DNA from: Rufibacter hautae
GTDB lineage: Bacteria; Bacteroidota; Bacteroidia; Cytophagales; Hymenobacteraceae
Assembly (NCBI RefSeq): GCF_008271695.1
Contig: NZ_VKKY01000003.1
Location: forward strand, 434,001-498,000
Length of the DNA: 64,000 nt
Direction of reading: 5' to 3'
Part shown: positions 785 to 63,911 of the stretch, piece by piece
Layout: the number at the start of each line of letters is the position of its first letter
Numbering within the stretch: position 1 is the first letter of the stretch
The notes under the pieces: generated by a model
What the model was told of the DNA's origin: nothing
Database searches by the model: none
Seen by the model: the letters and a program-made list of their open reading frames with translations, nothing else
Translations under genes and position numbers: made by a program

Positions 785-820
785 GTTTTGCGGGTGTTTT
801 CCAGAAAACAAGGCCTAAAC
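785..820. repeat. 36-bp GTTT/AAAC palindrome
   Basis: Copy of the dispersed palindrome family: GTTTTGCGGGTGTTTTC, then a 2-nt centre, then GAAAACAAGGCCTAAAC. It lies between two convergent genes. Confidence 0.7.
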
Positions 821-825
821 AGAAG

Positions 826-1914
826 CTACCGTTGCCGGGCTAGGGGCACATCGGCTGTCTCGGTTTCTTCATTTACCAGGAAGAGCGTGCGGGTAGGGTA
901 GGCAAACTCAATGCCCCGGTTCTGGAACTCCTCATAGATTTTGAAGTTGATGTTCTGCTGGATGTCCATGTACTTGTTATAGGAGTGGCTCAAAACATAG
1001 TACACCACCTCGTAGTCCAAGCTGGAGTCTCCATAGCTCACAAAATGGGCGCGGTCAAATTCCACTGGCTCCTGCGCTTTTACTATGTCTTCCAGCAACC
1101 CGGGAATGAGTTTCATGGTCTCCAGCGAGGTCTGGTACGTGATCCCAAGTTTGAACACCACCCGCCGCCTAAGCATTTGTTTGTAGTTATGGATGCGCGA
1201 TTTGGTCAGGTCACTGTTGGCAAACACCAGCAACTCCCCCGAGAGGCTTTTCACCCGTGTGGTCTTGATGCCGATGTAATCCACGGTGCCGCTTTTGTCG
1301 TCAATCACAATGAAGTCGCCGGTCTCAAAGGGGCGGTCAAAGAAAATCACGAAGTAGTTGAACACGTCTCCCAGGATGTTCTGCGCGGCCAGCGCGATGG
1401 CAATTCCCCCAATGCCCAGACCGGTGATGATAGTGGTGACGTTATAGCCCATGTTGTCGAACAGGAAGAGCAGGCCCACCAGCCAGATCACCGCGTTGAT
1501 GATGAGCATGAGGCCGCCCAGCTGTTTCACTTTCTCCTCGCCGCGATCCTGTTTTCTCACATACGTCCTGAGCAGCATGAGAATGGTGGTGGAAACCAGG
1601 CGCACAAATAGAAACGTGATCACCATGGTGGTCACCACCCCCAATACGTTCTGGGCTTTCTCTGATAAGGTTAGATAGCTGATGCCCGCGTGGATGATGG
1701 CAAAGTAGAGCGCCGGCAGCAGGAATCGGTCTACGCCCTCCACCAGCAGATCGTCAAAGTGGGTTCTGGTGCCTTTCACCCAGCGTCTGATTTTCCGGAA
1801 GAAGATGTGCTTCACAGACCTGAGCAGCAGTAATCCTATGACAATGGCTCCTAGGGCGACGAGGTAATCAAAGACGCTGTTGTGGTAATAGGTCTGGTTT
1901 AATAATCTGTTCAT
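826..1914 (-). CDS. MscS-family mechanosensitive ion channel
   Basis: An inner-membrane channel of about 362 aa that would open under membrane tension to release solutes during hypo-osmotic shock. There are several hydrophobic N-terminal segments (about residues 10-160). The pore-helix and beta-domain signature follows: GLGIGGIAIALAAQNILGD, then a FFDRPFETGDFI segment typical of MscS beta domains, then a mixed C-terminal domain. I chose ATG 1914 over an upstream in-frame start at 1944 because the extra residues are an unusual Gly/Pro-rich stretch and a purine-rich GAAGAA precedes this ATG. Monocistronic as far as can be seen. The family is clear; the exact subfamily and gating are not. Confidence 0.88.
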   Translation of the reverse strand: MNRLLNQTYYHNSVFDYLVALGAIVIGLLLLRSVKHIFFRKIRRWVKGTRTHFDDLLVEGVDRFLLPALYFAIIHAGISYLTLSEKAQNVLGVVTTMVITFLFVRLVSTTILMLLRTYVRKQDRGEEKVKQLGGLMLIINAVIWLVGLLFLFDNMGYNVTTIITGLGIGGIAIALAAQNILGDVFNYFVIFFDRPFETGDFIVIDDKSGTVDYIGIKTTRVKSLSGELLVFANSDLTKSRIHNYKQMLRRRVVFKLGITYQTSLETMKLIPGLLEDIVKAQEPVEFDRAHFVSYGDSSLDYEVVYYVLSHSYNKYMDIQQNINFKIYEEFQNRGIEFAYPTRTLFLVNEETETADVPLARQR

Positions 1915-2096
1915 TTCTTCAGCTGGGGGTGCACGGCCGCCCAACTTGCGCCAGGCCGCAGATAGTAAAACAATAACCAGGGTATAGTACGTGCAACCCT
2001 TGGCCAGTAGTTATACTAGGCCATTGCCCACGCCAAAGCCCCACACCTCCGGAAGAGCGGGAGTGCAGGGCTCCAGAAGGTCAGAAAAGAATCCGT

Positions 2097-2618
2097 TTAG
2101 GGGTTTGATTTGGCTTTGGCGGCCTGGGCGGCTTTCAGGTCGCAGTTCTCCTTGCGGCGGGTGTCTGTGATGGTGAAGATTTTCCAGCCCTGTGGGGAGC
2201 GGTACAGTTGGAAGGCATCTACGCCGCAGTGGCTGAAGGTGTCTCCCACGTAGAAGGCGTACTCGCACCAAAGCGTGGCCAAGTCGCCGTCAATGTTCAC
2301 TTTCACGTCCCAGATGCGCTCGTCCAACACCTGCGGATGGGGCTGCCCAATCATCTGCACAAACTTGTCCATGGGTGTCTCGCGGGGCAGGACCTGGCCG
2401 TCTTTGCCGGCGCCTACTGAAAACAACAGGGCGTTGGATGCCAATACCGAGCGGGCCATGGTGCTGTCGCTTGCGCGCATGCCGTCAAAGAAACGCACCA
2501 CCGCCGCTTCCACGGCTTTCGCATCTGCTGAGGGCTTGGCCGGTGTGGCTTTTTTAGTCTGGGCAAAGGCCGCTACGCTGAGCAGGAGGCAAAAAGAGAA
2601 CAAAAGTAGGGCGCGCAT
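2097..2618 (-). CDS. Secreted NTF2/SnoaL-like protein
   Basis: A 173-aa exported protein. A cleavable signal peptide (about residues 1-20, ending AFAQ) is followed by a Lys/Ala/Pro linker and one NTF2-like cone domain. Typical features are the first helix AVVRFFDGMRASD, the WDVKVNIDGDLATLWCEYAFY strand pair, and the closing GWKIFTITDTRR strand. Such domains bind small hydrophobic ligands or serve as enzyme scaffolds; no catalytic residues can be assigned. It ends Lys/Ala-rich. Stands alone between MscS and a Cys-containing hypothetical gene. Confidence 0.75.
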   Translation of the reverse strand: MRALLLFSFCLLLSVAAFAQTKKATPAKPSADAKAVEAAVVRFFDGMRASDSTMARSVLASNALLFSVGAGKDGQVLPRETPMDKFVQMIGQPHPQVLDERIWDVKVNIDGDLATLWCEYAFYVGDTFSHCGVDAFQLYRSPQGWKIFTITDTRRKENCDLKAAQAAKAKSNP

Positions 2619-3369: not shown

Positions 3370-3405
3370 GTTTTTAGGGTGTTTCTGTAAAATCGGGCTT
3401 GAAAT
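3370..3405. repeat. 36-bp palindrome, degenerate copy
   Basis: GTTTTTAGGGTGTTTC...AAAATCGGGCTTGAAA: same architecture as the other copies, with several mismatches between arms. Confidence 0.5.
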
Positions 3406-3733: not shown

Positions 3734-3777
3734 ACCTGTTTCGGGGCAGATTTTCAGAAATCAGCCCTGAAACAGGT
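3734..3777. repeat. Extended GTTT/AAAC-type palindrome
   Basis: A nearly perfect 44-bp inverted repeat (arms ACCTGTTTCGGGGC... and ...GCCCTGAAACAGGT around TTTTCAGAAA). It sits 15 bp beyond the stop of the DJ-1/PfpI gene and could end or protect that transcript. Confidence 0.7.
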
Positions 3778-5774: not shown

Positions 5775-5810
5775 GTTTTTGGCTTGTTTCTCAGAAAAGA
5801 GCGCCTAAAC
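5775..5810. repeat. 36-bp GTTT/AAAC palindrome
   Basis: GTTTTTGGCTTGTTTC / GAAAAGAGCGCCTAAAC, upstream of the PBP1A promoter. Confidence 0.65.
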
Positions 5811-16198: not shown

Positions 16199-16240
16199 GC
16201 TGGGCCCGATGTAGCACATACATCGGGCCCAGCCGTTTTA
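16199..16240. terminator. Terminator of coiled-coil gene
   Basis: A perfect 14-bp GC-rich stem (arms 16199-16212 and 16220-16233), followed by CGTTTTA. Confidence 0.8.
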
Positions 16241-16270
16241 AAGCGGTTTTTGCGAAAACAGGCCCAAAGC
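16235..16270. repeat. 36-bp GTTT/AAAC palindrome variant
   Basis: GTTTTAAAGCGGTTTTTGC / GAAAACAGGCCCAAAGC, abutting the preceding terminator. Confidence 0.6.
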
Positions 16271-16379
16271 GGTTGCTGTTTCTCTCGATTTTCACCCCTA
16301 TTGCTGCCCGTGAGAAGGGCATGATCCTATCATCGTTTGTAGCTTATTTTAGTCAAAACAGCCTTAAAGCAGTAAGTTG

Positions 16380-18113: not shown

Positions 18114-18304
18114 ATTCTTGTGCAAAAGGACACAGGAATTCCATTTCAGGCCTGAATTTCCATAACCAGTTTAAGAATAGGATTAGGAACATTTTACGGT
18201 AGCCAATGGAATAGCATCGCCCTTGCTGCGTGTTTTCACCAGCAAGCGGAAGGACGCGAGCATCTGGATCGTTGGTGTTTTCCCACAGCCATCAGGCTAC
18301 GAAG

Positions 18305-18470: not shown

Positions 18471-18517
18471 CCCCCTCTTCGGGCCAGTTTTTGAGAAAAC
18501 AAGCCCGAAGAGGGGGC
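18471..18517. repeat. Extended GTTT/AAAC-type palindrome
   Basis: CCCCTCTTCGGGCCAG / AAGCCCGAAGAGGGGG arms around TTTTTGAGAAAA; 14 bp beyond the pirin stop codon, so it may act as its terminator. Confidence 0.65.
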
Positions 18518-20339: not shown

Positions 20340-20488
20340 CGGCAGGCAACGGGGAAAGGAGGAAAGTTTTCTGAATCGTTTTGGATTTGATTTCTAGAAA
20401 ATGGGCATTAAATCAGTCCGTAGGTAAGAGGTAAGGCAATGCCTACCTGAGGCGGGTCATGTATTTCCCTTACAGTTAAGCCGAAAAT

Positions 20489-20520: not shown

Positions 20521-20556
20521 GTTTAAGACCCGTTTTCAGAGAAATGGTTTCTAAAC
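20521..20556. repeat. 36-bp GTTT/AAAC palindrome
   Basis: GTTTAAGACCCGTTTTC...GAAATGGTTTCTAAAC; arms imperfect. Confidence 0.55.
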
Positions 20557-27809: not shown

Positions 27810-27846
27810 GTTTTGGGCCTGTTTTCTGTAAGATAGCTAAAAAATA
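27810..27846. repeat. Degenerate GTTT/AAAC palindrome
   Basis: CGTTTTGGGCCTGTTTTC with a decayed right arm; just upstream of the pyrophosphatase-like gene. Confidence 0.4.
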
Positions 27847-27947: not shown

Positions 27948-30902
27948 CTACTGCAACTCGTCCAGCAACCGGAAGGGGTTCAGTCTTTGCAGATTCAACG
28001 AGTACCGGATGCTGTTTCTAAAATCTTTGAAGTTTTTGGGGAGGTCAGAAGCGTAGTTGCTGCCCGCCACCGGGAAGTAAACCTGGAGGGCGTTCCGGAA
28101 AAAGGAAAGCTGCAGGCCCGTGCCATAGAACAGTTTATCCTGCTCCTGCACGCGGCCCAGGTCCAGGTACACGGCGAAGGACGTCACCGGTAAATCGGCG
28201 GTGAGGTTGAGGGCGGCCAGCCATTCCTGGCTCATAACGGGCACCCCGTTCCGGAAACCGCCGTCCTGCCTATCGGTCTGCCGGATGGCCGCTGAACTGC
28301 CTTGTGAGGTGGTGAACATCTCGGTGCGGTTAAAGAACGGCGTCTGCTTCAGGTAATCGGGGCTGCCGGCCAGACCCAGATAGTATGGACTTCGGGAATA
28401 GTCGTTATCGGCCATGAAGCCTACAAAGCCTCGCACCCTGATTTCCTTTTCAGGCCGGTATTTGAACCAGTTTTCTAAAGAAAGCCTAAAACGAGTAGGA
28501 GAGAAGTCCACCTCCTGAAACCCTTCTTCCGGGGTATTTGGCGTTACAATGAAGGTAGGTACCGAAGTCGTGTACCTGAAATGGGTGACGTCTAAATTTA
28601 CCTGGGTTCCTGCCACCGCATTTTGGGTAGAAAGCTGATAGGCGAGGTGAGGGGCGTGGAAATCTGGCAGGAAATCATCCTGCACGTAGTGCCAGGCCAG
28701 CGTGAGTTGCTGCCGAGCCGTGGTGGGATTATGCAGGCGGTTGTGGATCGTGAGGCTAGGCGCGATGCTGTGAAAGTTGGCAAACCGCTGGCCCAGCACA
28801 CCCAACTCCACCTTCCGCAGAAAGCCCTGCGCCGGAATCCTGAACTTCACATCGGCCAGGCCCGTCAGTCGGCTGCTCTTGAAGCCGTACATCGGCATGA
28901 CCACGTAATTGAGCTTGTGCTCCGTAAGAAACGAGTTGTAGAAGGCTGCCCCCAGTTGGAAACCGTCAAAAGTGTTATACCCCAACGAGGGTGCCACGAA
29001 GAGTTGTTTCTGGTCTATCCGATCTGCGCTTAGGAAAGGCTGAAGGCGAATAGGTTCACTTTTCGGGAAAAGAGCCCCTAAACGGGACTGGTTGTCGCGG
29101 CGGTCCAGCTCCGGGAACACGTACTCAGGGTCTACCACGATGCGGTCAATACCGGAGGCGGTGAAGGTGACGGTCTGCTCTTTTTCGCCCGGTTTGGTCC
29201 AGTGTGATTCCAGCGTTTTTCCCGCGGCGTCCAGCGCGGCCACCTGCACCGGCAAGGCCAGTTTCCCGGTTTGCCGCACAATTGCCTGGGTAGATCCACC
29301 GGAAGAGGTGACGGTTTGCAGGTGCGCATCGGGCAGGGTAGTGGAAGGCAGCAAGTCCTTGAAAAACCAACCCAGCTTTTCGCCCGTGGATTTCTCCAGC
29401 ACCGCCTGCAGATCCTCGGGATATGGATGCTTGAACTGCCATTGGCGATAATAGGTGTGCATGGCGCTGTCAAAGCGGGCGGTGCCCAGGTACTTCTCCA
29501 GGTACTGGAACAGCTGCGCCGTTTTGAGGTAAACGATGGTGCCGTAATTGAGGGTCCTGAACTGGGTTGCCGGAGCGGTCACGGGTTGGTCCAACCCGCA
29601 GCTAACCGCCGACAGATAGGCCGGGTTGTCAATAGCTGCCGGCGGCAAATCATCCACCCCCAGGAACTTCCCGAAGGCATTCGTATTCACCTCGCTGGAC
29701 ACCATACCCGCATATTTATTTCGCAGCGCTTTGGTCCGGAATTCATAGTAAGAGTTGATGCCCTCATCCAGCCAGGGATGTTTACGCTCGTTGCTGGCCA
29801 GGATACCGTAAAACCAGTTGTGGCCCACCTCATGAATGATGGCCTCGGGCTCAGTGACGGTTACCATGGGGTATTCCATGCCCGCGCCGGCGCTCAGGGC
29901 GGCGTCTACCGCCGTGGCTTGGCTATAGGGGTAATCACCCAGCCACAAAGAGTAGGCGTAGACGGCATCGTTGATCTCGTGCGCTCTCCCAATCCATTGG
30001 TCCGCCACCCGGTTCGTGAACAAAAGCCAGGTAGTCACCGGACGTTTGGAATAAGGCAGCACCACCTCGTTTTTCAAGACATGGAACCGCTTATCAGCGA
30101 ACCAAGCGAAATCATGGATGCGGTCTTGTTTGTAGTGCAGGGTTTTAGTGGCTTTCGCCGAGGCCGGAAATGCCAGATCCTCCGTGTTAAACTCTTTGAT
30201 GGCTGCCGTCACCCGCGCCAGGCTGTCCATACGCGTCTGCTCGCGCTCGTTCTGCAGCACCCCCGTGGCGCCCACGGTGTAGTTGGCGGGCAAGGTGATG
30301 CGCACATCAAACGACCCGAACTCGGAGTAAAACTCGCCTTGGTCCAGGTACGGCATCGGGTGCCAGCCTTTCTGATCGAATACCGCCGGTTTAGGGTACC
30401 ACTGCGAGATCTGGTACGATTGCCCCACGTGCCCCAACCGCGAAAAAGAATCCGGCAACTTAACCTGAAAAGGAGTGCTGATAGTGATTCTGCCGCCCGG
30501 CACCAACGGCTGGTTCAAAGTAAGCTTCGCGATGTCTGGGTTCTTGGCATCTAGTTCCCATTTCACGTTTTGGCCGTTTATTTTGAAATCCAGCCCCGAA
30601 ATAGAACCGCGGGACTCCTCCTTGGCGAAGTAGAACTTGTCTTCATTATTAAATAACTGCTGCTTCGCGAAGGCCGTGTTGCGGTCTTGGTAGGCGTTGG
30701 GCCACAAATGGAAGTACAGAAATGTGAGCGTTTCCGGCGAGTGGTTCACGTACTCAATCTGTTCTGTGGCCGAAAGAATATGGTTCACATCATCCAGCGT
30801 CACCTCAATTTTATAGTTCACCTCCTGTTGCCAATAGGCCTGTTGGGCGAAAACAGAAAAGGGAAGCAGAAGCAATAGGGAAAATAACAGGCGAGGCAGC
30901 AT
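27948..30902 (-). CDS. M1 family metallopeptidase, secreted
   Basis: A 984-aa exported zinc aminopeptidase-like protein. A signal peptide (about 1-20) is followed by the N-terminal beta domain and the catalytic thermolysin-like domain. There, IIHEVGHNWF supplies HExxH and WLDEGINSYYE the third zinc ligand. GAGMEYPMVT replaces the exopeptidase GxMEN motif. The C-terminal half (about 600-984) is rich in alternating beta strands (RRVELGVLGQRF-type, NWFKYRPEKEIRVRGFVG), resembling a surface barrel or decoration module. Acts in periplasm or at the surface to release N-terminal amino acids. Monocistronic. Confidence 0.92.
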   Translation of the reverse strand: MLPRLLFSLLLLLPFSVFAQQAYWQQEVNYKIEVTLDDVNHILSATEQIEYVNHSPETLTFLYFHLWPNAYQDRNTAFAKQQLFNNEDKFYFAKEESRGSISGLDFKINGQNVKWELDAKNPDIAKLTLNQPLVPGGRITISTPFQVKLPDSFSRLGHVGQSYQISQWYPKPAVFDQKGWHPMPYLDQGEFYSEFGSFDVRITLPANYTVGATGVLQNEREQTRMDSLARVTAAIKEFNTEDLAFPASAKATKTLHYKQDRIHDFAWFADKRFHVLKNEVVLPYSKRPVTTWLLFTNRVADQWIGRAHEINDAVYAYSLWLGDYPYSQATAVDAALSAGAGMEYPMVTVTEPEAIIHEVGHNWFYGILASNERKHPWLDEGINSYYEFRTKALRNKYAGMVSSEVNTNAFGKFLGVDDLPPAAIDNPAYLSAVSCGLDQPVTAPATQFRTLNYGTIVYLKTAQLFQYLEKYLGTARFDSAMHTYYRQWQFKHPYPEDLQAVLEKSTGEKLGWFFKDLLPSTTLPDAHLQTVTSSGGSTQAIVRQTGKLALPVQVAALDAAGKTLESHWTKPGEKEQTVTFTASGIDRIVVDPEYVFPELDRRDNQSRLGALFPKSEPIRLQPFLSADRIDQKQLFVAPSLGYNTFDGFQLGAAFYNSFLTEHKLNYVVMPMYGFKSSRLTGLADVKFRIPAQGFLRKVELGVLGQRFANFHSIAPSLTIHNRLHNPTTARQQLTLAWHYVQDDFLPDFHAPHLAYQLSTQNAVAGTQVNLDVTHFRYTTSVPTFIVTPNTPEEGFQEVDFSPTRFRLSLENWFKYRPEKEIRVRGFVGFMADNDYSRSPYYLGLAGSPDYLKQTPFFNRTEMFTTSQGSSAAIRQTDRQDGGFRNGVPVMSQEWLAALNLTADLPVTSFAVYLDLGRVQEQDKLFYGTGLQLSFFRNALQVYFPVAGSNYASDLPKNFKDFRNSIRYSLNLQRLNPFRLLDELQ

Positions 30903-31022: not shown

Positions 31023-31056
31023 GATTTTGCCCTGTTTTTCAGAAATTATGCTTAAC
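31023..31056. repeat. Degenerate GTTT/AAAC-type palindrome
   Basis: GATTTTGCCCTGTTTTTC followed by AGAAATTATGCTTAAC, directly after the 74-bp element. Confidence 0.4.
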
Positions 31057-31097
31057 ATAGGAGTGCGAAACATCACTACCCTTCACTAAGCAAACAA

Positions 31098-32433: not shown

Positions 32434-32490
32434 CGCCCTGCTTTGAGGCTGTTTTAGAGAAAACAGCTTCAAAGCAGGGCGTTTTTGTTT
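32434..32490. terminator. Terminator made from a GTTT/AAAC-type palindrome
   Basis: Near-perfect 48-bp inverted repeat (arms CGCCCTGCTTTGAGGCTG / CAGCTTCAAAGCAGGGCG) followed by TTTTTGTTT, so it can end transcription of the amidohydrolase. Confidence 0.8.
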
Positions 32491-32837: not shown

Positions 32838-32873
32838 GTTTAGAGCCTCTTTTCGCAAAAGAAGCCCTTAAAC
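32838..32873. repeat. 36-bp GTTT/AAAC palindrome
   Basis: GTTTAGAGCCTCTTTTC / GCAAAAGAAGCCCTTAAAC, ending 9 bp before the TPP enzyme start, so it may sit in its 5' leader. Confidence 0.65.
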
Positions 32874-34676: not shown

Positions 34677-34713
34677 CGTTTAGGGCTTGTTTTTGGAAAA
34701 CAGACTCTAAACG
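34677..34713. repeat. GTTT/AAAC palindrome
   Basis: CGTTTAGGGCTTGTTTTTG / GAAAACAGACTCTAAACG, 7 bp after the TPP enzyme stop codon. Confidence 0.7.
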
Positions 34714-35064: not shown

Positions 35065-35100
35065 GTTTTCAAGCTGATTTACAGAAATCGGCGCAAAACG
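35065..35100. repeat. 36-bp GTTT/AAAC palindrome
   Basis: GTTTTCAAGCTGATTTAC / AGAAATCGGCGCAAAAC, just after the -7 box and before ATG 35111, so it would lie in the leader RNA. Confidence 0.65.
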
Positions 35101-36436: not shown

Positions 36437-36472
36437 GTTCTGGACCTGATTTACGGAAACCAGGCTTAAAAC
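36437..36472. repeat. 36-bp GTTT/AAAC palindrome
   Basis: GTTCTGGACCTGATTTAC / GGAAACCAGGCTTAAAAC, 3 bp after the amidohydrolase stop. Confidence 0.65.
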
Positions 36473-36577: not shown

Positions 36578-37471
36578 TTGAAACTAGCATTAGTGACCTA
36601 CGAAGCCATTCACAGCTATGGCTCATTGAGCGGCAGCGAAGACGGCGTCCTGATGGATTACCTCACCTCTAAAGGCATTGACATCACCCTGGAAGACTGG
36701 CATGACCCGGCCGTGAACTGGGAGCAATATGATCTGGCGGTGTTCAAATCGCCGTGGGATTATTTTGATAAGTTCCCAGCCTTCTGCGCCTGGCTAGACC
36801 GCATGGAAGCATTAGGCATTCGCACCCTGAACCCCATCTCTACCATCCGCTGGAACGCCGATAAGCACTACCTTTTGGAGGTGGAGAAAGCCGGATTGCC
36901 GATTGTGCCTACTGCGTTACTCAAAAGAGGAACCGCCGTAGCTTTAGAGCAGTACTTTAGCCAGTTCCAAACCGATAAGCTCATCATCAAGCCCTGCGTA
37001 AGCGGCGGCGCGAAGAACACGTTCATTGTGTCTCTTGACCAAGTGGAAGAAGTGACCCCCAAGCTGGAGGAATTGCTGAGAGCAGAAGATTATCTGGCGC
37101 AGCCGTTCATGCCACAGATTCAGGAAGAAGGCGAGTGGTCGTTCCTGTTCTTCAACGGCCAGTACAGCCACTGCCTGCTCAAGTCCGCCAAAGACGGTGA
37201 TTTCAGGGTACAGCATTTCTTTGGTGGTACCATTCATCCGCAGGAAGCCCCGGCGCACCTGTTGGCGCAGGCCCAAACCATGGTAGACCAGTTCGCCGAG
37301 GGCTGTCTGTACGCCCGCGTAGATGGCGTGGTGGTAGGCGAGGAACTGCAACTAATGGAACTGGAACTGATTGAGCCGTTCCTGTACCTGCACACGCACC
37401 CAGATTCGCTGGAGAACTACTACCAAGCTCTGGTGCAGATGATGGAAGAAGTGCCTTCTTCCGTTTCGTAG
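36578..37471 (+). CDS. ATP-grasp domain ligase-like protein
   Basis: A 297-aa protein of the RimK/glutathione synthetase ATP-grasp group, with NPISTIRWNADKHYLLEVEKAGLPIVPT before the grasp domain, KLIIKPCVSGG at about residue 128, and MELELIEPFLYLHTHPDS in the metal-binding end. Members ligate a carboxylate to an amine; DcsG and glutathione-synthetase-like enzymes are relatives. The start is a TTG at 36578, since no ATG precedes the conserved MKLALVTYEAIHSYG start in frame. Substrates unknown. Confidence 0.82.
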   Translation: MKLALVTYEAIHSYGSLSGSEDGVLMDYLTSKGIDITLEDWHDPAVNWEQYDLAVFKSPWDYFDKFPAFCAWLDRMEALGIRTLNPISTIRWNADKHYLLEVEKAGLPIVPTALLKRGTAVALEQYFSQFQTDKLIIKPCVSGGAKNTFIVSLDQVEEVTPKLEELLRAEDYLAQPFMPQIQEEGEWSFLFFNGQYSHCLLKSAKDGDFRVQHFFGGTIHPQEAPAHLLAQAQTMVDQFAEGCLYARVDGVVVGEELQLMELELIEPFLYLHTHPDSLENYYQALVQMMEEVPSSVS

Positions 37472-37498
37472 CCCATTTCAGAGAAACAGGCCTAAAAC
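37463..37498. repeat. 36-bp GTTT/AAAC palindrome across a stop codon
   Basis: GTTTCGTAGCCCATTTCAG / GAAACAGGCCTAAAAC. Its left arm contains the last codons and the TAG stop of the ATP-grasp gene. Confidence 0.65.
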
Positions 37499-38524: not shown

Positions 38525-38560
38525 GTTTTGAAGCCGATTTCAGGAAAATAAGCCCAAAGC
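38525..38560. repeat. 36-bp GTTT/AAAC palindrome
   Basis: GTTTTGAAGCCGATTTCAG / GAAAATAAGCCCAAAGC, between the nuo operon end and the SDR gene. Confidence 0.6.
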
Positions 38561-40076: not shown

Positions 40077-41628
40077 GAGAACCTCCTTTCAGGGTATGAA
40101 CCGAATCTTGTGGGTGGGCGATAAGAGTAACGGAGTTGGGGGAAGTGATTTTCAGCGATGGTTGGGCATAGGCCTCTAATTGCGTTTCTAAGGAACCTCG
40201 GGCCAGGTCCAACACCGGCTGCGGATTCAGCCCGAGCCACAGAATGAGCACCACCAACGGCACGGCAATCCCCAACTCCCTGGGGGAAAGATCCTGCATT
40301 CTATGCGTAGTATGGTGCTGGCCCAGGAACACTTTTTGCATGATGCGCAGGGAGTACACCGTGGCCGCTACTAACCCGATGGTCGCGAAAACGGTAAAGA
40401 CCGGACTGGCTCGCCAACTGCCCACCAGCGTCAGGAACTCGGCAATGAAATTCCCCAGCCCGGGAAGTCCCAGCGACGCCATGACAAACACCATGGCTAT
40501 TACGCCCATTTTAGGCAGAGTAGGCCAGAAACCGCCCATCTGCCGGATGTCACGGGTGTGGAGCCGCTCGTAGAGGAAGCCCGCCAAAATAAATAGGGCG
40601 CCGGTACTGAGGCCGTGGGTAATCATCTGCATCACCACGCCCTGGTACGCCCATTGGTTGAAAGCGAAAACGCCCAGCACCACAAAGCCCATGTGGCTCA
40701 CGCTGGTGTAGGCGATGAGGCGCTTGAGATCAGTCTGCGCGAAGGCCAGGATGGCGCCGTACAGAATCCCTATCACGCCCAGTAGCATCGCCCAGGGGGC
40801 AAAGACTTGGGCGGCTTCGGGGAACAGCGGTACCACGAAACGCAGCAATCCGTACGCCCCGGTTTTCAAGAGCAGCCCGGCCAGGATCACGCTACCGGCG
40901 GTAGGGGCCTGGGAGTGGGCATCGGGGAGCCAGGAATGGAACGGAACTACGGGTAATTTCACCAGGAACGCCGCCAGGAAACCTGCCATGAGCCACTTCT
41001 CCACGCCCAATGGAAAGTTAGTGCCCAGCAAATCAAAATAATTAAAGGAGTAGGTGCCTGTGGCCGTGCCGTGCACAAAATACAGCCCCAGAATGGACAA
41101 AAGCATGAGCAGCCCGCTGGCTTGCGTGAAGATGAAGAACTTGTAGGCCGCGTACGTCCGGTTCTCATGCCCCCAGATACCGATGAGGAAGTACATGGGA
41201 ATGAGCATCACCTCCCAGAAAAAGTAAAACAGGAACAGGTCCATGGTCAGGAACACGCCCGTAATCCCCGCTAACACCCAGAGGATGTTGAAATGGAAGA
41301 ACCCTACCTTGGTTTGGATCTCTTTCCAGGAAATCAGGATAGAAACTAGGCCGATGAAGAACGTCAAGGCCAGCATGAGCAAACTCAGCCCGTCCAGGGC
41401 CAGCGAAAAGGAAACACCCCATTGCGGAATCCAGGGTACTTCATAGCGCATCAGCCAGGTGTTGGCGGTGTGGGCCGGGGTTTCCAGCCAGAGGAACAGC
41501 GTCATGAGCAGACAGGCCAACGTCACCGACAATGCCACCCAGCGCGGCAACTGCGGATGGACACGGTCGCTGACCCAGGCCAGGATGCCACCCACCAATA
41601 AAAGAACAAGGAGCCAGGCGAGTATCAT
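40063..41628 (-). CDS. nuoM: NADH-quinone oxidoreductase subunit M
   Basis: A 521-aa antiporter-like subunit. It shows FFWEVMLIPMYFLIGIWGHENR, VVPFHSWLPDAHSQAPTAGSVILAG and LKRLIAYTSVSHMGFV, the family's Glu and Lys pumping positions. Overlaps nuoL by 4 bp and nuoN by 14 bp. Confidence 0.96.
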   Translation of the reverse strand: MILAWLLVLLLVGGILAWVSDRVHPQLPRWVALSVTLACLLMTLFLWLETPAHTANTWLMRYEVPWIPQWGVSFSLALDGLSLLMLALTFFIGLVSILISWKEIQTKVGFFHFNILWVLAGITGVFLTMDLFLFYFFWEVMLIPMYFLIGIWGHENRTYAAYKFFIFTQASGLLMLLSILGLYFVHGTATGTYSFNYFDLLGTNFPLGVEKWLMAGFLAAFLVKLPVVPFHSWLPDAHSQAPTAGSVILAGLLLKTGAYGLLRFVVPLFPEAAQVFAPWAMLLGVIGILYGAILAFAQTDLKRLIAYTSVSHMGFVVLGVFAFNQWAYQGVVMQMITHGLSTGALFILAGFLYERLHTRDIRQMGGFWPTLPKMGVIAMVFVMASLGLPGLGNFIAEFLTLVGSWRASPVFTVFATIGLVAATVYSLRIMQKVFLGQHHTTHRMQDLSPRELGIAVPLVVLILWLGLNPQPVLDLARGSLETQLEAYAQPSLKITSPNSVTLIAHPQDSVHTLKGGSHALK

Positions 41629-43517
41629 GGGAGTAGACTTATGGTGATAATCACAAGGGCGCCCACTACCACGCCCATCATGTACCAGCGCAGGATGCCG
41701 CTCTGCGTGTGGGCCATCCCCCGGTTCAACATCCGGGCAATGTGGGTCAGTAAATGGTAAAAAGAGTCAATGAAATCGTTCTTGTTGAGGGTGGCCATGT
41801 AGACGAAAGGCTGCACAAAGAGCTTGTCATACAACCGGTCAAAGCCCCACCCTGAGTACCAGAACCGGTGCAGCGCCATGGCCACGCCCGAGTTTCGGAT
41901 GCTTTCGTGCAGGGCAGGTCGTTTCAGGTACACCAGGTAGGCGACGAAAACCCCGGCCAAAGAGAATGCTGCCGCAATAGCCTGGAACATCCACTCAGAA
42001 GGGACCATGCTTTCGTTTACGGGCAGATTTGGCAAAACCGGGCTCAAAAAGGAAGAGAACAGCACCACGTGCCCAAAGTTGTGCGGCAGCTCAATAAACC
42101 CCGCCACAGTGGAAAGGACCGCCAGCACCACCAACGGCAAAACGATGAGCTTGCCCGGCGGATGCTCCAGATGCGTTTTGGCTTCGCCGAAGAACGTGAT
42201 GAACACCATCCGGAAGGTGTAGATGGCGGTGATGAACGCGCCGACCAGCCCGGCCAGGTACAGCCAGATGTTACCGCGTTCGCCCGCCAGGGCCAACCAT
42301 AGAATCTGGTCTTTGCTGTAGAAGCCCGCCGTCACCAAAGGCAAGGCCGCCAATGAAGCCGCCCCAATCAAGAAGGTCCAGAACACGGCCGGCATTTTCT
42401 CTTTGAGGCCGCCCATTTTGAACATGTTCTGCTCATGGTGCAGCGAAATAATAATGGCCCCGGCCGCCAGGAAGAGCAGGGCCTTGAAGAACGCGTGGAT
42501 CATGAAATGGAAGATACCCGCGCTCCAGGCCCCTACGCCCAAGGCCAGAAACATGTAGCCAATCTGACTGATGGTGGAATAGGCCAGCACCCGCTTCAGG
42601 TCTGACTGAGTCAACGCAGAAAATCCCGCCAGCAGCAAGGTAACCGCGCCAATGACTGCCACGGTAAATTGGGCTATCGGCGCCAGCTCAAACAGCACGT
42701 GCATTCTAGCGATAAGGTACACACCCGCCGTCACCATGGTTGCTGCGTGAATTAAGGCACTCACTGGCGTAGGACCGGCCATAGCATCGGGGAGCCAGGT
42801 CTGCAGTGGTAACTGTCCTGATTTTCCTACCGCTCCGCCCAACAGCAGAAACGCGATGATTAAAGCGGGTTGCACACCTATGGGCCAAGCTTGAGTTGCT
42901 TCAGATGAAATGGTCTGGATGTGCAGCGTCCCGAAATACTGGAAAAGCATGAACAAGCCAATGGCCATGGCCGTGTCGCCCACCCGGGTAATGATGAAGG
43001 CTTTGCGGGCGGCATAGCCGTTTTGGGGCTCTTTATACCAAAACCCGATCAAAAGGTAACTGCACAAACCCACACCTTCCCAGCCCAGGTACAGCAACAG
43101 CAGGTTATCCGCGAGCACCAGCACCAGCATAGAGCCCACAAACAGGTTCATGTAGGCAAAGAAGCGGGTGAAGCCCTCGTCCTCGGCCATGTAGGCGGTG
43201 GAGTAGAGGTGAATCAGGAAACCCACAAACGTGATCACGAAGATGAACACTAAAGACAGCGCATCCAGGTGAAACGCGATGGACGGGTTGAAGCCTGCCA
43301 CGTTAAACCACTGCCAGACTTCCTGCCGGTACACGCCTCCTGCGGGAGCATCGCTCAGAAATTGAAAACCCAAAAGCAACGTGAGCACGGCCGATAAACC
43401 AACGCTGCCCACGCCAATTAGAGACACCACCGTACGGGGCAGTCTGCCGCCCAGCAGAATCAGCAGCAGGGCACCGGCAAAAGGCAAAGCGGGAATGACC
43501 CAGAGTAGATTTTCCAT
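41625..43517 (-). CDS. nuoL: NADH-quinone oxidoreductase subunit L
   Basis: A 630-aa antiporter-like subunit, with the long C-terminal lateral helix expected to run along the other two. LPLQTWLPDAMAGPTPVSALIHAATMVTAGVYLI and LKRVLAYSTISQIGYM are intact. Starts 2 bp after nuoK. Confidence 0.96.
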   Translation of the reverse strand: MENLLWVIPALPFAGALLLILLGGRLPRTVVSLIGVGSVGLSAVLTLLLGFQFLSDAPAGGVYRQEVWQWFNVAGFNPSIAFHLDALSLVFIFVITFVGFLIHLYSTAYMAEDEGFTRFFAYMNLFVGSMLVLVLADNLLLLYLGWEGVGLCSYLLIGFWYKEPQNGYAARKAFIITRVGDTAMAIGLFMLFQYFGTLHIQTISSEATQAWPIGVQPALIIAFLLLGGAVGKSGQLPLQTWLPDAMAGPTPVSALIHAATMVTAGVYLIARMHVLFELAPIAQFTVAVIGAVTLLLAGFSALTQSDLKRVLAYSTISQIGYMFLALGVGAWSAGIFHFMIHAFFKALLFLAAGAIIISLHHEQNMFKMGGLKEKMPAVFWTFLIGAASLAALPLVTAGFYSKDQILWLALAGERGNIWLYLAGLVGAFITAIYTFRMVFITFFGEAKTHLEHPPGKLIVLPLVVLAVLSTVAGFIELPHNFGHVVLFSSFLSPVLPNLPVNESMVPSEWMFQAIAAAFSLAGVFVAYLVYLKRPALHESIRNSGVAMALHRFWYSGWGFDRLYDKLFVQPFVYMATLNKNDFIDSFYHLLTHIARMLNRGMAHTQSGILRWYMMGVVVGALVIITISLLP

Positions 43518-45898: not shown

Positions 45899-48603
45899 GC
45901 GGGTTCTGGTTTAAGGATGATGGCCCAGGCGGGTACTTCAAAAAACGGAACATCTTGTAAGCCTCTGGGTACCCCAGCGGTGCCCGGCGAGAGCTCAGGA
46001 TACAGTTTCACCGGCAGCCGGAAGGTCTGGTGGTTCAGCGTGAAACTGAGGATCTCACCTGCTTCCAAACCAAAGGTCTGGGCGTCCCTCGGGTTCAGGG
46101 CCACATAGGGTTTTGGGGCTCTTTCTGCAATCCCGGGCGAAAACGAGCTCAACTCCTCCGACCCGAAAATGTGGGGCAGCGGCAGCACGAACAGGTGGTC
46201 TTTCAGCGGCTGGAAGTCTTCGGGCACATCGTGGTAATAGCGGTTGAGCCCGTCCTGCCCTGGTTCTATGAGCCGGATGCCCGGATCGCCGTACCGCAGA
46301 TGCCCGCCCACTTCGTCCTGGTACTTGTTCACCGACTGCATGGAGTTCCAGCCGGGCGCCCAGAAGAAAGGCGTAATAGGTGAAGGCGGTTGGCCCCGGT
46401 AGCCTTCCATGGTAAAGGAAAGCGGGGAATCAGGGTCTTGGGGCGGTTTGGCTTCGCTCACGTTATGGTGGGCGAACATGGCGGTGCGGCCGCTGAACCG
46501 GTGGGTTTCCCGGGGTATTTTCTGGCCGGAGATCCGGAAACCAGCGGGCGGAGCCAGGGCTTCTAGACTTCTGAACTTAGGCTCAACCTCCATCAGGGCG
46601 CGGTTCACGTCATCTATGTTCTCCCATTGGCTCATCAGGGGCACGTGCAGCGCCTGGCCTATTTGCGCGAGCCAGCGCCAGCTTTCCTGGATGTCCTCAG
46701 CAGTGGGGTAGACCTGGTAGAAGCGTTGGGCCCGACCCTCGTTGTTCACCAAGGTGCCATCTGCCTCCGAGAAGGCGCCGGCGGGCAGCAGTACATGGGC
46801 TTTCTCAGTGGTGGCGTGGTGCAGGTGGTCCAACACGATGACCTGTTTGGCTTTGCCCAGGAAACGGTCTACTTCTGCTTTATCGGCGCAGCGGTGCAGG
46901 TTGTTCTCCAGGATGATGACCGCCTCGGCATAGCCGTTATGAATGGCCGCAAAAGCGGAATCGAGTCGGTGACCGCCCAACATCGCCAGGCCCATGCTGT
47001 TGCATTCGGGCAGGGTGAGCACGAGGCCGGTTTCGGGGTTTTGGGCGTGTAAGGCCGCAGTGAGGTTAGCTGCTGCTTCCAGCACGGCTTCGCTGCCCGT
47101 GGAGCAGCCCGAGATGATCAAAGGCTTTTTGGCTTTCACCAACGCCTGGGCAATCTGCTCTGCCAGGGCCTGCTCTTCCTCTGATAAATGCGTCACCTCC
47201 GGCGATCCGGCGCTGATGAGGTTGGCCACAGCAAAGCCCAGGCGGGCGATGGTATCCGGAGAGGCGTGTAGCGTGGCGGTGGCGATCTCATCCAGTTTGG
47301 TGGCGGTGAGCGTGGCCATGAAAAGCGGCCCGTGCTGCTCCTGCACCAGCTCCCGGGCGGCGGCATCCTGCCAATACGGGATACTGGCTTGCATCACCGT
47401 TTCCAGCGGTTGTTGCCGCCCTGATTGCCTTACCGCCAAGCCCAGCCGGGGAGCGGTGTTGATCAGGTCCTCGCCCAGAATGAAAACGGCATCGGCTTTC
47501 TCCACTTCCCGCAAACTGAACGTGCGGGCCGGCGTACTCTGCAGGATCTTCAGGCTCATATTCACCATGTCATAATCCGTGTCGGAGACGCCGCTGTGGA
47601 AATTGTCCTCGCCCACCAGAGCCTTCAGCGCGAAGTTGGATTCCAGCGAAGCGCGCGGCGAGCCGATGCCAATAACCCGGGCAGTTTTGAGTTGCGTGGT
47701 GACTTCCTGCAAGGCTTCCTCGCGGGAAACGGCCTCGGGAAGTTTGGTTCGTACCAACGCTTTTCTTATCCGTGCCGGGCCGTTCACGAACTCATAGCCA
47801 AACCGACCCCGGTCACAAAGGAAATAGCCGTTCACCTCGCCGTTGTAGCGGTTGGTAATCTGCCGCAAGGAACCGTAGCGTTCGCCGGCGGTGATGTTAC
47901 AGCCCAAGCTGCAGTGGTGGCACACCGAGGGCGCCATGGTGAGGTCCCATTTGCGGGTGTAGTGCTGTTTCAGGGTTTTGTCGGTGAAGACGCCGGTGGG
48001 GCAGACCTCGGCCAGGTTGCCGCTGAACTCACTTTCCAGTACGCCGTCCTCGGCCCGCCCGAAGTACACGTGGTTGTGCGCCCCGAACACGTCCAGGTCT
48101 TTACCGCCGGCATAATCTTTATAGTAGCGCACGCAGCGGTAGCACTGGATGCAGCGGTTCATCTCATGGTTGAGGAACGGGCCCAGGTACTGGTTCTGGT
48201 AGGTGCGTTTTTTGAACTGGAAGCGGCGATACGAGTGGCCCGTCATTACGGTCATGTCCTGCAAATGGCAGGAACCGCCTTCGTCGCAAACGGCGCAGTC
48301 GTGCGGGTGATTGGTCATGAGCCACTCAATCACGTGCTCCCGGAATTCTTTGGCCTCGGGCTCCTCAATGGACAGGCGCAGGTTGTCGCGCACCGGTTCC
48401 ATGCAGGACATGATGAGGCGGCCTTTTGTGTCAGCTTCGTCTTTGAAGATTTTCACAGCGCACTGGCGGCAAGCCCCCACCGAGCCCATGGCCGGATGCC
48501 AGCAGAAGTAGGGCAGGTCTTTGCCTAAGGATAGGCAGGCCTCCAGCAGATTTTTGCCGGCAGTTACCTCATAGGGCACGTTGTCTATGTAAATGGTGGG
48601 CAT
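45868..48603 (-). CDS. nuoG: NADH-quinone oxidoreductase subunit G
   Basis: A 911-aa subunit of the electron input arm. The N-terminal 2Fe-2S domain has [29 protein letters not shown] and [17 protein letters not shown] bind 4Fe-4S clusters. CHHCSLGC plus the later YFLCDRG form the extra cluster (N7) found in E. coli-type NuoG. The large C-terminal region is molybdopterin-oxidoreductase-like without cofactor residues. 3 bp after nuoF. Confidence 0.95.
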
Positions 48604-50363: not shown

Positions 50364-50464
50364 CTGTTCTTCGGTTAAGTACTTGTTCGTTTCCTCAGCA
50401 GCAGTGCTGCTGTTTGTAAAATTGAGTCGATGTTTGTCTTGGTGATTAGCTCACCTGATGTTCC

Positions 50465-50504
50465 CTGTTTCAGGCCTGTTTTCCAGAAACCAGCCTAAAA
50501 ACAG
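50465..50504. repeat. GTTT/AAAC-type palindrome in nuo operon
   Basis: CTGTTTCAGGCCTGTTTTC / AGAAACCAGCCTAAAAACAG. Confidence 0.65.
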
Positions 50505-50586
50505 AGAACTCAGGCGGACATTCACTGTATCTATGTAGACCTCGGCTTTGCTTCCTCTACTCTCAACATTCCCGATTTTGCCGGGC

Positions 50587-50623
50587 CGTTTAGAGGCTGT
50601 TTTCTTAAAATCAGCCCAAAACG
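50587..50623. repeat. GTTT/AAAC-type palindrome in nuo operon
   Basis: CGTTTAGAGGCTGTTTTC / TTAAAATCAGCCCAAAACG. Confidence 0.65.
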
Positions 50624-54604: not shown

Positions 54605-54642
54605 CGTTTACTGGCTATTTTCTGAAAAACGCCGGCGAAACG
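54605..54642. repeat. GTTT/AAAC palindrome variant
   Basis: CGTTTACTGGCTATTTTC / TGAAAAACGCCGGCGAAACG. Confidence 0.55.
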
Positions 54643-54761: not shown

Positions 54762-54796
54762 ATTTTTGAGGTGTTTTCCAGAAAACGGGCTAAAAC
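54762..54796. repeat. GTTT/AAAC palindrome variant
   Basis: ATTTTTGAGGTGTTTTC / CAGAAAACGGGCTAAAAC. Confidence 0.6.
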
Positions 54797-62093: not shown

Positions 62094-62828
62094 TTAAGCA
62101 GTAGCTTTTTTCAATTTGATGATGCCCACTTTATCCAGGGTCCAGATGATAGGGTAAGTTGGGTCCACTTCCCACCATTTCACCCCGAAGTTCACGCGGT
62201 TAGGCAATTTGTGGTGGTTGTTCTGGAACAACTCGCCACCGGTTAAAAAGTCAAAGAAAAGCGAGTTTCTTGATTTGTCGTTGTTGTCAAAGTTCTGGTA
62301 GCCGTATTTGTGACCGCTCCAGTTCACGATGGCGCCGTGCAGAGGCCCCATCAGGAAGTGCAAAGGCAACAGCAGGTACATCCACCAGTACTCGGCAAAG
62401 TAAATATAGAAAACCACGTAGAAAGTACCCCACGCAAGTCGGGAACCCCAGTGATCGCCAATTCTTTCTACTAGGCGCCAAACCGGGTAATTGCCATCAA
62501 AGCGCATCTCTGGTTCCACTCTGTTCTTCAAGACATCGTTGTAGATGTTCTTGGTTTTCCACATCATGGTGAAGGCATTGCTGGAAAAGTGCGGCGAATG
62601 CGGGTCACGGGCCGTGTCTGAGAACGCGTGGTGCATCCGGTGCAGAATGGCATATGCTCTGGGCGACAGGAAAGACGAGCCCTGGCTGATGTAGGTGAAA
62701 AGGAAAAAGAACTTCTCCCAAAACGCATTCATGGTGAACATTTTATGCGCGGCGTAGCGGTGGAGGTAAAAGGTCTGCACAAACAGCGACAGGTACCAGT
62801 GTGCTACGAAAAAGAGGATGATAATCAT
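62094..62828 (-). CDS. Acyl-CoA/fatty acid desaturase
   Basis: A 244-aa membrane di-iron desaturase. Histidine boxes HRYAAH, HRMHH and NNHHKLPNR are all present, as is the second HGAIVNWSGHKYGY. Introduces a double bond into fatty acyl chains, typically at position 9. Starts at ATG 62828; the longer frame begins with TTG. Confidence 0.93.
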   Translation of the reverse strand: MIIILFFVAHWYLSLFVQTFYLHRYAAHKMFTMNAFWEKFFFLFTYISQGSSFLSPRAYAILHRMHHAFSDTARDPHSPHFSSNAFTMMWKTKNIYNDVLKNRVEPEMRFDGNYPVWRLVERIGDHWGSRLAWGTFYVVFYIYFAEYWWMYLLLPLHFLMGPLHGAIVNWSGHKYGYQNFDNNDKSRNSLFFDFLTGGELFQNNHHKLPNRVNFGVKWWEVDPTYPIIWTLDKVGIIKLKKATA

Positions 62829-63185
62829 GCTGGGTGATTGCAATTAATAGTTTACGCCTAACAGCGGCAGGCAGTATGAGAACAGCCCTGCCGTAAATAA
62901 GTTCACAAAGCTACAACGCAAGTTATAAACGCTGCAATGACAAACCTGTATTTTGCGCAAAAGTGATAAGAATCATCTTTTGCTCTTCCTTCTTGGTTTG
63001 CCAAATCCCTTAAACAGGTAATTGGCTGAAGTTTTCCTTTGGCTATTTTATGTCTGCTTTTATAAAAATGACTGATAATTGCTTTGACTTCAAACTAGAA
63101 ACGGCACGGCCCTAAGAAACTTGCACTTGCTTGAGCAAACAGAAACCTGATCTGAAATTTAAAGAAGGCTGAACAGAGGGAAAGC
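62829..63185. other. Intergenic region
   Basis: A 357-bp gap upstream of the desaturase gene with only its probable promoter recognised; no gene or clear repeat seen. Confidence 0.45.
62906..62913 (-). promoter_or_regulatory. Putative -7 box of desaturase
   Basis: Minus-strand TAGCTTTG matches TAnnTTTG, 77 bp before ATG 62828. Confidence 0.4.
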
Positions 63186-63872
63186 TTAGGGCTGGAAAGG
63201 TTGCCAGGCCGGAATGCGGGGAAGAGGAGCCTGTACAGAGACCCAGGTTTTCAGGACGGGATGCTCAAAACCCAGTTCGCGCGCGTGCAGGGCGATGCTT
63301 TTGTTGGGCAGCGGCTCCGGGGCGCCGTACCGCAGATCGCCCAGGATGGGACATTTGAGCGAGGCTAATTGTACCCGTATCTGGTGCGGCCGACCGGTGA
63401 CGGGCCGAACCTCTACCAGGTATTTGCCATTGGCGCCTTTAAGTAAAGAATAGCTGAGTTCGGCGCGTTGGCTGCCCGGCTTTTCACTCGTGAGAGCTTT
63501 GGTGGTATTGCGCTCGGCGTCTTTGACAAGCCAATGCACTAGGGTTCCGGCCTCAGGTTGCGGAGCCCGTTGCGTGATGGCCCAGTAAATTTTTTCCGTT
63601 TTCCGGGTTTTGAACTGTTCGTTCAGGCGAGTGAGAGTTTTGGAGGTCTTGGCCAGGAGCACCACGCCGCTTACCGGCCGGTCCAAACGGTGTACCACGC
63701 CAATGAACACGTTGCCCGGTTTCTGATATTTCTCCTTGATGTACTCCTTCGCCAACTCTGAGAGCGGCACATCACCGGTTTCATCGCCCTGCACCAGCAC
63801 TCCGCTAGGTTTGTTCACCACCAGCAGGTGGTTGTCTTCAAAAAGTACGTCTAGCTTGAAGGGGGCAGGCAT
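63186..63872 (-). CDS. RluA-type pseudouridine synthase
   Basis: A 228-aa RNA pseudouridine synthase. The catalytic Asp is in VVHRLDRPVSGVVLLAKTSK; VEVRPVTGRPHQIRVQLASLKCPILGDLRYG follows. No S4 domain, so an RluA/RluC-like single-domain form; target unknown. ATG 63872 is chosen because the region upstream (63876-63911) is a dispersed palindrome, although the frame stays open to ATG 63932. Confidence 0.9.
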   Translation of the reverse strand: MPAPFKLDVLFEDNHLLVVNKPSGVLVQGDETGDVPLSELAKEYIKEKYQKPGNVFIGVVHRLDRPVSGVVLLAKTSKTLTRLNEQFKTRKTEKIYWAITQRAPQPEAGTLVHWLVKDAERNTTKALTSEKPGSQRAELSYSLLKGANGKYLVEVRPVTGRPHQIRVQLASLKCPILGDLRYGAPEPLPNKSIALHARELGFEHPVLKTWVSVQAPLPRIPAWQPFQP

Positions 63873-63875
63873 TCG

Positions 63876-63911
63876 GTTTTTAAGCTGTTTTTGAGAGAAG
63901 AGGCGAAAAGC
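63876..63911. repeat. 36-bp GTTT/AAAC palindrome before rluA-like gene
   Basis: GTTTTTAAGCTGTTTTTGAG followed by AGAAGAGGCGAAAAGC. It lies immediately upstream of ATG 63872. Confidence 0.5.

Follow-up and report, generated by a model that had tools for sequence, protein, structure and literature searches.

Long intergenic palindromic repeats of bacteria are usually classed as REP elements or as terminators, while the DNA-uptake sequences of Neisseriaceae (DUS) and Pasteurellaceae (USS) are highly repeated words of about 9–12 nt. REP elements are described as palindromes of 20–40 bp located mainly downstream of genes (PMC3733652), DUS as arising largely via recombination and not via point mutation (PMC2397512), and HIP1 (GCGATCGC) of cyanobacteria as a highly frequent palindrome for which selection has been proposed, its function being unsettled (PMC4390886).

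The motif of Rufibacter hautae considered here, YGTTTYNRGSCYGWTTTY-NN-mirror, is almost always 36 bp long and is mostly intergenic, frequently 3′ of a gene, with some copies within essential genes. In the window, the whole 64-kb stretch of DNA analysed, 21 of the 22 places listed in the original prediction are motif copies (Table 1), whereas 26152 was unmatched even at E 10; the family is real, but the consensus first proposed for it is idealised. All 21 copies have the length of 35–36 bp that had been claimed for many of them (36 bp, n=17; 35 bp, n=4). Two unlisted places also matched, 20378 (E 5e-6) and 16335 (E 4e-5), and the window holds 23 distinct places at E<=0.001; a refined matrix recognizes 32 places at a score of at least 14, adding nine weaker ones, some of which lie in genes. 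Constancy of length is partly built in, since the motif scanner admits 35–37 bp only; of the 150 matches scored by a covariance model that permits gaps, nearly all were likewise 36 bp long. The scoring matrix was trained on copies from R. hautae and the genomes G005 and G006, and gene calls stem from an in-house codon-usage script rather than a published caller. No Rfam family matched the window at gathering score, and a limited search of the literature on Rufibacter palindromes or Hymenobacteraceae intergenic repeats yielded no description of the motif.

Table 1. Matches to the palindromic motif in the 64-kb window (coordinates are window positions)
Feature	Position	Strand	Context
motif copy	785..820	.	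convergent gap; 19 nt 3′ of stop of ORF 298-765
motif copy	3370..3405	.	G014 has a copy at the same distance
motif copy	3738..3773	.	outer stem 3734-3777; strong hairpin
motif copy	5775..5810	.	40 nt 5′ of predicted start; same distance in 5/5 species compared
motif copy	16235..16270	.	
weaker motif copy, not in original prediction	16335..16370	.	
motif copy	18476..18511	.	within longer hairpin, convergent gap
motif copy, not in original prediction	20378..20413	.	
motif copy	20521..20556	.	
motif copy	27810..27845	.	22 nt upstream of predicted minus-strand start
motif copy	31023..31058	.	39 nt 5′ of predicted start
motif copy	32440..32475	.	inner part of 52-nt hairpin, then T-run: intrinsic terminator
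motif copy	32838..32873	.	9 nt 5′ of predicted start
motif copy	34678..34712	.	7 nt 3′ of stop
motif copy	35065..35099	.	immediately 5′ of predicted start
motif copy	36437..36472	.	3 nt 3′ of stop; 1-3 nt in 8/8 species compared
motif copy	37463..37498	.	overlaps stop codon; adjoins separate terminator-like hairpin
motif copy	38525..38560	.	
motif copy	50467..50502	.	upstream of nuo genes; motif and adjoining sequence hardly vary between five species
second copy in gap of 50467..50502	50588..50622	.	same position in five species, sequence diverged
motif copy	54606..54641	.	
motif copy	54762..54796	.	
motif copy	63876..63911	.	inside 5′ end of listed ORF 63186-63932; ORF start maybe misassigned
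in-gene match, score 20	30567..30602	.	synonymous differences at fixed positions 0/105, 7 species
in-gene match, score 27	41311..41346	.	nuoM-like gene (named by eye)
in-gene match, score 24	42015..42050	.	nuoL-like gene (named by eye)
in-gene match, score 21	43020..43055	.	same nuoL-like gene as 42015..42050

The motif extends far beyond the listed set, as expected of the genome-wide element originally proposed, with ~50 copies per 100 kb and an extrapolated total of ~2,900 in the R. hautae genome; densities and copy numbers are estimates, since the stretches of G005 and G006, and some of those of R. hautae, had been selected for containing strong matches or RAYT genes. At score 14, 464 kb of its own genome contain 233 copies, whereas first-order Markov resamples totalling 1.26 Mb yielded 2 and 76 loci from outside the genus yielded 1. 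A survey in which 150 candidates were scored per genome found the motif in 16/16 Rufibacter/Sabulibacter genomes and, at E<=1e-4, in 1/23 genomes of other genera; one genome of another genus, G022, has two places at E<=0.05, the better one at 1.8e-7. Four sister genera, with 100 kb each, gave 0, 0, 1 and 1 matches, and a dyad scan of the same extent revealed no equivalent family of like strength. The dyad set of Pontibacter is one locus repeated and provides no evidence for such a family. Copies follow species dialects, with GTTTAG in G004, GTTTTTGG in G006 and G013 and GTTTTGGG in G005. In R. hautae their density falls from 4.8 per kb in convergent gaps through tandem gaps to 1.1 per kb in divergent ones, and the median distance to a flanking stop is 58 bp. 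Overall spacing is no more even than random (CV 1.11 vs 1.14), and close pairs are fewer (19 vs 38.7 at random).

Copies keep orthologous places at a rate well beyond what neutral decay would permit. A copy within 12 nt of the same distance from the gene end was present in 115/179 tests of an own copy against a species, the species pairs not being mutually independent, compared with 19% upon random placement, while in a neutral simulation with 30–45% change, as taken from loop and arms, 0–8% of copies would remain recognisable. Relatives of copy 27810..27845 are situated 18–22 nt from the start in 7/7 species compared, the G004 copy being weak; the distance of 31023..31058 to its start is the same in G003 and different in the remaining relatives. 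Between orthologs, copies are 88% identical at fixed positions and 59% in the arms; as detection alone yields retained copies with 81–87% and 61–74% identity, respectively, in simulation, this contrast by itself proves little. It is the retention rate, not the contrast in identity, that carries the argument for selection.

Copies inside genes amount to 37, while shuffling of synonymous codons left 5.2 on average; at a score of at least 40 the numbers are 5 and 0. Single weak in-gene matches may be due to chance, ~5 of the 37 being expected. In MurE, the motif is present in 9/9 genus species sampled (scores 17–41) and absent from two outgroup genomes of other families (scores -24 and -12), and the alignment of 11 sequences is gapless at the site, as it is for PabB in 11 species. 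At fixed positions, synonymous third bases of PabB differ in 0/142 pairwise comparisons (53% outside) and those of MurE in 13% of 155 (44% outside). These gapless sites, the motif-free MurE outgroups and the near-constant synonymous bases together indicate that the motif is kept at the DNA level and, judging by the alignment, the MurE motif arose without insertion. Eleven further in-gene sites, aligned without gaps being allowed, show 31.5% synonymous differences at fixed positions when pooled, against 40.8% outside; of the six sites at which all compared species score at least 11, five show 0–8%, the exception being L025:12459 with 26% against 19% outside. Besides MurE and PabB, the majority of other in-gene sites shared between species show constraint at synonymous bases. 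At 43020..43055 the alignment with other genera is gapless, and their motif scores are -9 to -32. In PabB, the copies of G004, G006 and G013 conform to the dialect of their species, whereas that of G005 does so incompletely, as does the G006 copy in MurE. A 36-bp palindrome held inside protein genes without insertion is explained by neither the REP nor the terminator label.

Against this background, the Markov resamples, the extra-genus loci and the nearly empty sister genera leave chance palindromes in intergenic DNA with a virtually negligible probability. A function as intrinsic (Rho-independent) terminators or as some other RNA hairpin is likewise highly improbable as a general account, even if some copies, those with extended stems, resemble terminators: outer stems of at least 4 pairs surround 26/233, 32/159 and 32/138 copies in three genome samples (2.4, 4.9 and 4.1 expected), arms and outer stem of 18476..18511 vary together between species, as coupled changes in gap 18114-18531, and the copy at 32440, singled out beforehand (as 32434) as the one with a T-run, is a full terminator. 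However, T-runs follow just 10–11% of near-stop copies (0–25% in either direction and all contexts), so that the general lack of T-runs first noted holds and most copies cannot be explained simply as Rho-independent terminators. RNA folding of 11 window copies gave a clearly better result than shuffles for 4 (z<-3), these being the four folded with flanking bases, and 5 remained at z>-1.1. The claim that the arms usually still pair is weak, since 76.3% of cells pair in the window copies and 74.2% after redealing the arms, with 43/500 redeals reaching the observed pairing and 18/500 the covariation score. Pair counts, which exclude copies of 35 or 37 bp, exceed shuffles in R. hautae (z 4.1) and G005 (z 5.2; G006, z 1.3), mainly through convergent and near-stop and slightly through divergent copies, whereas near-start and in-gene copies pair no better than shuffled arms. 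As double changes in the arms between orthologs are also in excess (784 vs 491 expected), hairpins matter at some sites; mismatches show no clear preference for G-U over A-C (ratios 0.64–1.16). The T-run and folding counts speak against a simple terminator as the main account, a stable hairpin with T-run occurring in a subset only. The constraint on fixed positions persists at synonymous bases within genes, which also speaks against the hairpin account, and the lack of excess pairing in near-start and in-gene copies points to a motif of double-stranded DNA rather than an RNA element; of the structural or RNA-processing role originally suggested, RNA processing is unsupported as a general role.

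If the copies formed a REP/MITE-like family that was spread by a RAYT (Y1) transposase and inherited afterwards, this would account for their palindromic form, size and copy number and for the gradient from convergent to divergent gaps. The window yielded no Y1-transposase (RAYT-like) gene, as first noted; other contigs of the genome carry two, both with motif copies on either side, some weak, and such genes occur in 14/15 other genus members. Flanking by copies on both sides, at up to 300 bp, was seen for 9/30 RAYT loci and for 18% of 603 genes (p 0.09), and for 4 of the 13 loci with a filter-found ORF, the filter having dropped 17. Identical copies, 7 in the G005 and 9 in the G006 sample, the stretches being partly chosen around strong matches, and flanks in which GAAA (55/228, 65/158, 42/138) or GGAA is common would fit mobility. 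On the other hand, the motif ends are enriched neither for GTAG (18/228, 9/158, 8/138) nor for CGTC (6/228, 4/158, 13/138; ~10% expected in each case), G006 with its one contig and homogeneous copies has no Y1 match at E<=0.001, and pairwise orthologous gaps of up to 1600 bp contain no convincing empty site, with one doubtful 45-bp candidate between G003 and G007. The gapless in-gene alignments and the retention beyond neutral decay speak against a mobile palindrome as the main account, which we consider unlikely, while intergenic copies could still have arisen by insertion. Solo half-sites number 70, 10 and 7 in R. hautae, G005 and G006 (13, 2 and 3 in shuffles) and are rare, unlike for uptake words. 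As candidates for transposon ends split by a gene, solo halves form seven left-right pairs in R. hautae and none in G005 or G006.

The element is genus-wide, nearly constant in length, conserved in position and, in the tested cases, located in genes without insertion. It is probably a 36-bp palindromic DNA signal, read as double-stranded DNA by a putative protein. A specific binding factor for the palindrome would then exist, and sites would be gained and kept by point substitution or allelic replacement, driven by weak selection or biased inheritance, and settle where least harmful, at gene 3′ ends and in variable protein parts. Drift of the specificity between species may have created the dialects, and in many cases copies at gene ends may have been built secondarily into hairpins, some of which became terminators. 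Two sub-readings of such a DNA signal can be distinguished. By analogy with Neisseria and Haemophilus, the likeliest process, if tentatively proposed, would be self-DNA recognition for uptake or recombination. A ComEC-type gene is present in the genome, but the same search also matches in 10/14 control genomes. Alternatively, a chromosome-organising or transcription-punctuating protein may bind the sites and act, for instance, as a roadblock where genes end; this role is possible but doubtful. Palindromy suggests a symmetric protein, and the bias towards convergent gaps and flanking stops and the rarity of close pairs agree with such a role. However, copies also reside near starts, in divergent gaps and within genes, permissive sites alone would yield the same bias, and no candidate protein was found. 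We know of no DNA-uptake or recombination signal in Bacteroidota, and among the matches listed no paper title names an uptake signal for this phylum. More speculatively, the genus may mark its own chromosome with thousands of palindromic self-DNA signals, written without insertion into intergenic DNA and even the coding sequence of core genes, whose dialects track a changing receptor; this would be a new type of uptake or recombination signal, long and palindromic. With 16 genus genomes and distinct dialects, a reading protein should show matching changes, and what maintains highly repeated chromosomal signals such as uptake words and HIP1 becomes directly testable.

With REP elements, the Rufibacter motif shares the short extragenic palindrome in high copy number, and the RAYT-like proteins of the genus carry motifs similar by eye to those of the REP/RAYT system, including the TnpA-Y1 subclass 2.6 of Bacteroidetes; it differs by the lacking GTAG/CGTC tag, the in-gene copies without insertion and the missing Y1 match in G006. 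Some copies resemble Rho-independent terminators in making up the core of a long hairpin with a T-run, but most are without T-run and the constraint lies on fixed bases. HIP1 is likewise a high-frequency palindrome with proposed selection; it comprises 8 bp and is tied to methyltransferase sites, in contrast to the 36 bp and mostly intergenic location here. For DUS, recombination is argued to be the main origin (PMC2397512); for the Rufibacter motif, either recombination or point mutation may apply. The unit of DUS and USS is a short asymmetric word, that of Rufibacter a 36-bp palindrome with rare solo halves; common to both are very many copies with species dialects and an intergenic and terminator association besides intragenic copies. 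On the best reading, the motif is closer to DNA-uptake sequences or to HIP1 than to REP elements.

Of the 22 places at which the original prediction had listed 36-bp GTTT...AAAC palindromes, 21 carry genuine copies of the motif, which measure 35-36 bp as claimed, and further copies were found in the window (table). With a position matrix derived from the copies of the window, whose refinement used Rufibacter hautae and the comparison genomes G005 and G006, a score of 14 recovers 233 copies in 464 kb of R. hautae, 159 in 400 kb of G005 and 138 in 400 kb of G006, as opposed to 2 matches across 1.26 Mb of Markov-resampled sequence and a single match among 76 loci beyond the genus. Extrapolated from the sampled stretches, the 5.84 Mb R. 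hautae genome harbours ~2,900 copies, 1.8% of its length; the most frequent copy sequence of each genome occurs once in R. hautae, nine times in G006 and seven times in G005. The proposed covariance-model search of relatives gave matches in 16/16 Rufibacter/Sabulibacter genomes (150 candidates scored per genome) and, at E ≤ 1e-4, in one of 23 genomes of other genera (G022).

Motif copies and neighbouring features (window coordinates, except for the last line)
Position	Strand	Feature	Observation
16335		Copy beyond the original list	
18312-18377		Long near-perfect inverted repeat, sequence different from the motif	Possibly a further repeat family
20378		Copy beyond the original list	
26152		Listed palindrome place	No copy
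35051-35065		TACTTTTG immediately 5' of a copy	TACTTTTG in 6/7, TATTTTTG in 1/7 species shown
36485-36526		Inverted repeat, as 18312-18377	Possibly a further repeat family
37554-37617		Inverted repeat, as 18312-18377	Possibly a further repeat family
39402-39505	minus	tRNA-Arg called by ARAGORN within nuo-like ORF	Likely spurious, judged by length and place
41311		Match in nuoM-like gene	9/11 other-genus loci gap-free, scores -4 to -49; 2 gapped
42015		Match in nuoL-like gene	Site covered by a single other-genus locus, score -31
43020		Match in nuoL-like gene	11/11 other-genus loci gap-free, scores -9 to -32
45868-48603		Protein, NuoG by eye	Closest relatives Sabulibacter ruber and three Rufibacter species, 91-93%
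50460-50509		Copy and ~20 bp each side, upstream of nuo genes	Nearly invariant in five species, much of remaining gap varies; possible component of a regulatory site
63916-63982		Inverted repeat, as 18312-18377	Possibly a further repeat family
L279 1501-1536		Good motif match in G022 (other genus)	Seemingly intergenic DNA

Copy density in R. hautae is 4.8 per kb in convergent, 2.2 in tandem and 1.1 in divergent gaps, with medians of 58 bp to the flanking stop and 151 bp to the flanking start, and in R. hautae, G005 and G006 together 44% of 603 genes have a copy at most 80 bp from their stop. Distances between copy and gene end are equal within 12 nt in 115 of 179 tests of an R. hautae copy against another species (random placement, 19%); in orthologous gaps, a copy lies 1-3 nt downstream of one gene stop in 8/8 species, 2-4 nt downstream of another in 12/12 and 40 nt upstream of a gene start in 5/5. 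The TACTTTTG box, which we take to resemble the Bacteroidota -7 promoter box, directly precedes the copy at 35065, which may thus sit in a 5' untranslated region.

Orthologous copies (96 pairs) are 88% identical at the fixed positions 1-4, 14-16, 21-23 and 33-36, 59% in the arms and 55% in the loop, compared with 84.5%, 44% and 33% between non-orthologous copies, so that arms and loop retain a trace of common descent. Upon simulated change of 30-45%, just 0-8% of copies were still recognizable, the survivors showing, by detection alone, an identity of 81-87% for the fixed positions and 61-74% for the arms. As detection alone yields such a contrast between positions, it is the retention of copies against simulated decay that is the evidence for their being retained by selection.

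Half-sites follow species dialects, with the consensus GTTTAGGGGCT in G004, GTTTTTGGCCT in G006 and G013 and GTTTTggGcCT in G005, and a looser one in R. hautae, G003 and G014; half-site information ranges from 14.5 to 23 bits, G012 standing apart with 27.1 bits (7 copies). Copies inside PabB obey the dialect of their own species in G004, G006 and G013, and those in PabB of G005 and MurE of G006 do so in part only. Counting only genes of 250 aa or longer and copies lying >60 bp inside either end, 1.26 Mb contain 37 in-gene copies versus a mean of 5.2 in synonymous-codon shuffles of 520 genes, and 5 versus 0 at score 40. The window matches in the nuoM-like and nuoL-like genes are weak ones, of which some could have arisen by chance. 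In MurE, the motif occupies the same codons in 9/9 genus species sampled (of 16; scores 17-41) and is absent from two other-family genomes (scores -24 and -12), with zero gaps across the eleven sequences; for PabB, compared within the genus, eleven species are gap-free around the site, ten scoring 24-51 and G015 12. Alignments to solved proteins, read for MurE, BioF, TrpE and PabB from a set that also included the alanine racemase domain of MurF-Alr, differ by at most 3 residues around the site and hold no 12-residue insertion.

Synonymous third bases at fixed positions differ in 0/142 pairwise comparisons for PabB (53% outside) and in 13% of 155 for MurE (44% outside). Eleven further in-gene sites pooled give 31.5% versus 40.8%; the six at which all compared species score at least 11 give 0/105, 0/22, 0/38, 8% of 50, 0/20 and 26% of 34, the last running counter with 19% outside. 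At the loci L176:8516, L195:6723 and L243:8178, compared in alignments allowing no gaps, part of the species have the motif, one or two have an intermediate form and the others lack it, which would fit gain or loss in place; with scores of just 19-22, some of the three may be chance matches, and allelic replacement could have produced the same pattern.

The original prediction that arms usually pair within a copy holds for 76.3% of cells, but redealt arms reach 74.2% and mismatches are frequent. Pairing exceeds that of shuffled arms in convergent (76.4 vs 66.8%) and near-stop copies (72.0 vs 64.8%) and slightly in divergent ones (64.2 vs 59.7%), with no excess near starts (62.7 vs 61.6%) or in genes (56.4 vs 57.0%). 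Position 9 is G or C, in near-equal shares in R. hautae; its pairing exceeds chance chiefly in convergent gaps and close to stops. Double changes at paired arm positions of orthologs number 784 (expected, 491), and G-U to A-C mismatch ratios range from 0.64 to 1.16. Outer stems of at least 4 pairs are in clear excess and differ from species to species; around similar cores, several gaps of G006 and of its relative G013 carry flanks that are self-complementary yet unrelated. The lack of T-runs was borne out in that just 10-11% of near-stop copies are followed by one. What the copies have in general is thus a DNA motif, on which hairpins, in some cases terminators, have been formed locally.

No transposase had been noticed nearby; the genome search gave two Y1-transposase (RAYT-like) genes near copies. 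Such genes occur in 15/16 genus genomes, G006 being the sole one without a match at E ≤ 0.001, even though few genomes have motif copies as homogeneous. Copies on both sides flank 9/30 Y1 genes versus 18% of other genes (p 0.09). By eye, these transposases resemble TnpA-Y1 subclass 2.6, as outlined in PMC6006769, which is a lead only.

Uptake or recombination drive would, by analogy, be a first guess at the role of the motif and chromosome organization a second; the ComEC-type gene present in R. hautae proves little for uptake. Since neither the tag nor, for the in-gene copies tested, insertion places the motif among REP/RAYT elements, and DNA uptake sequences and HIP1 are closest in behaviour, it may be named a DNA signal sequence with a presumed reader. 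DNA uptake sequences number in the thousands, occupy permissive and terminator regions as well as core genes and form dialects (PMC3630211, PMC2397512), and HIP1 is the other close comparison (PMC4390886).
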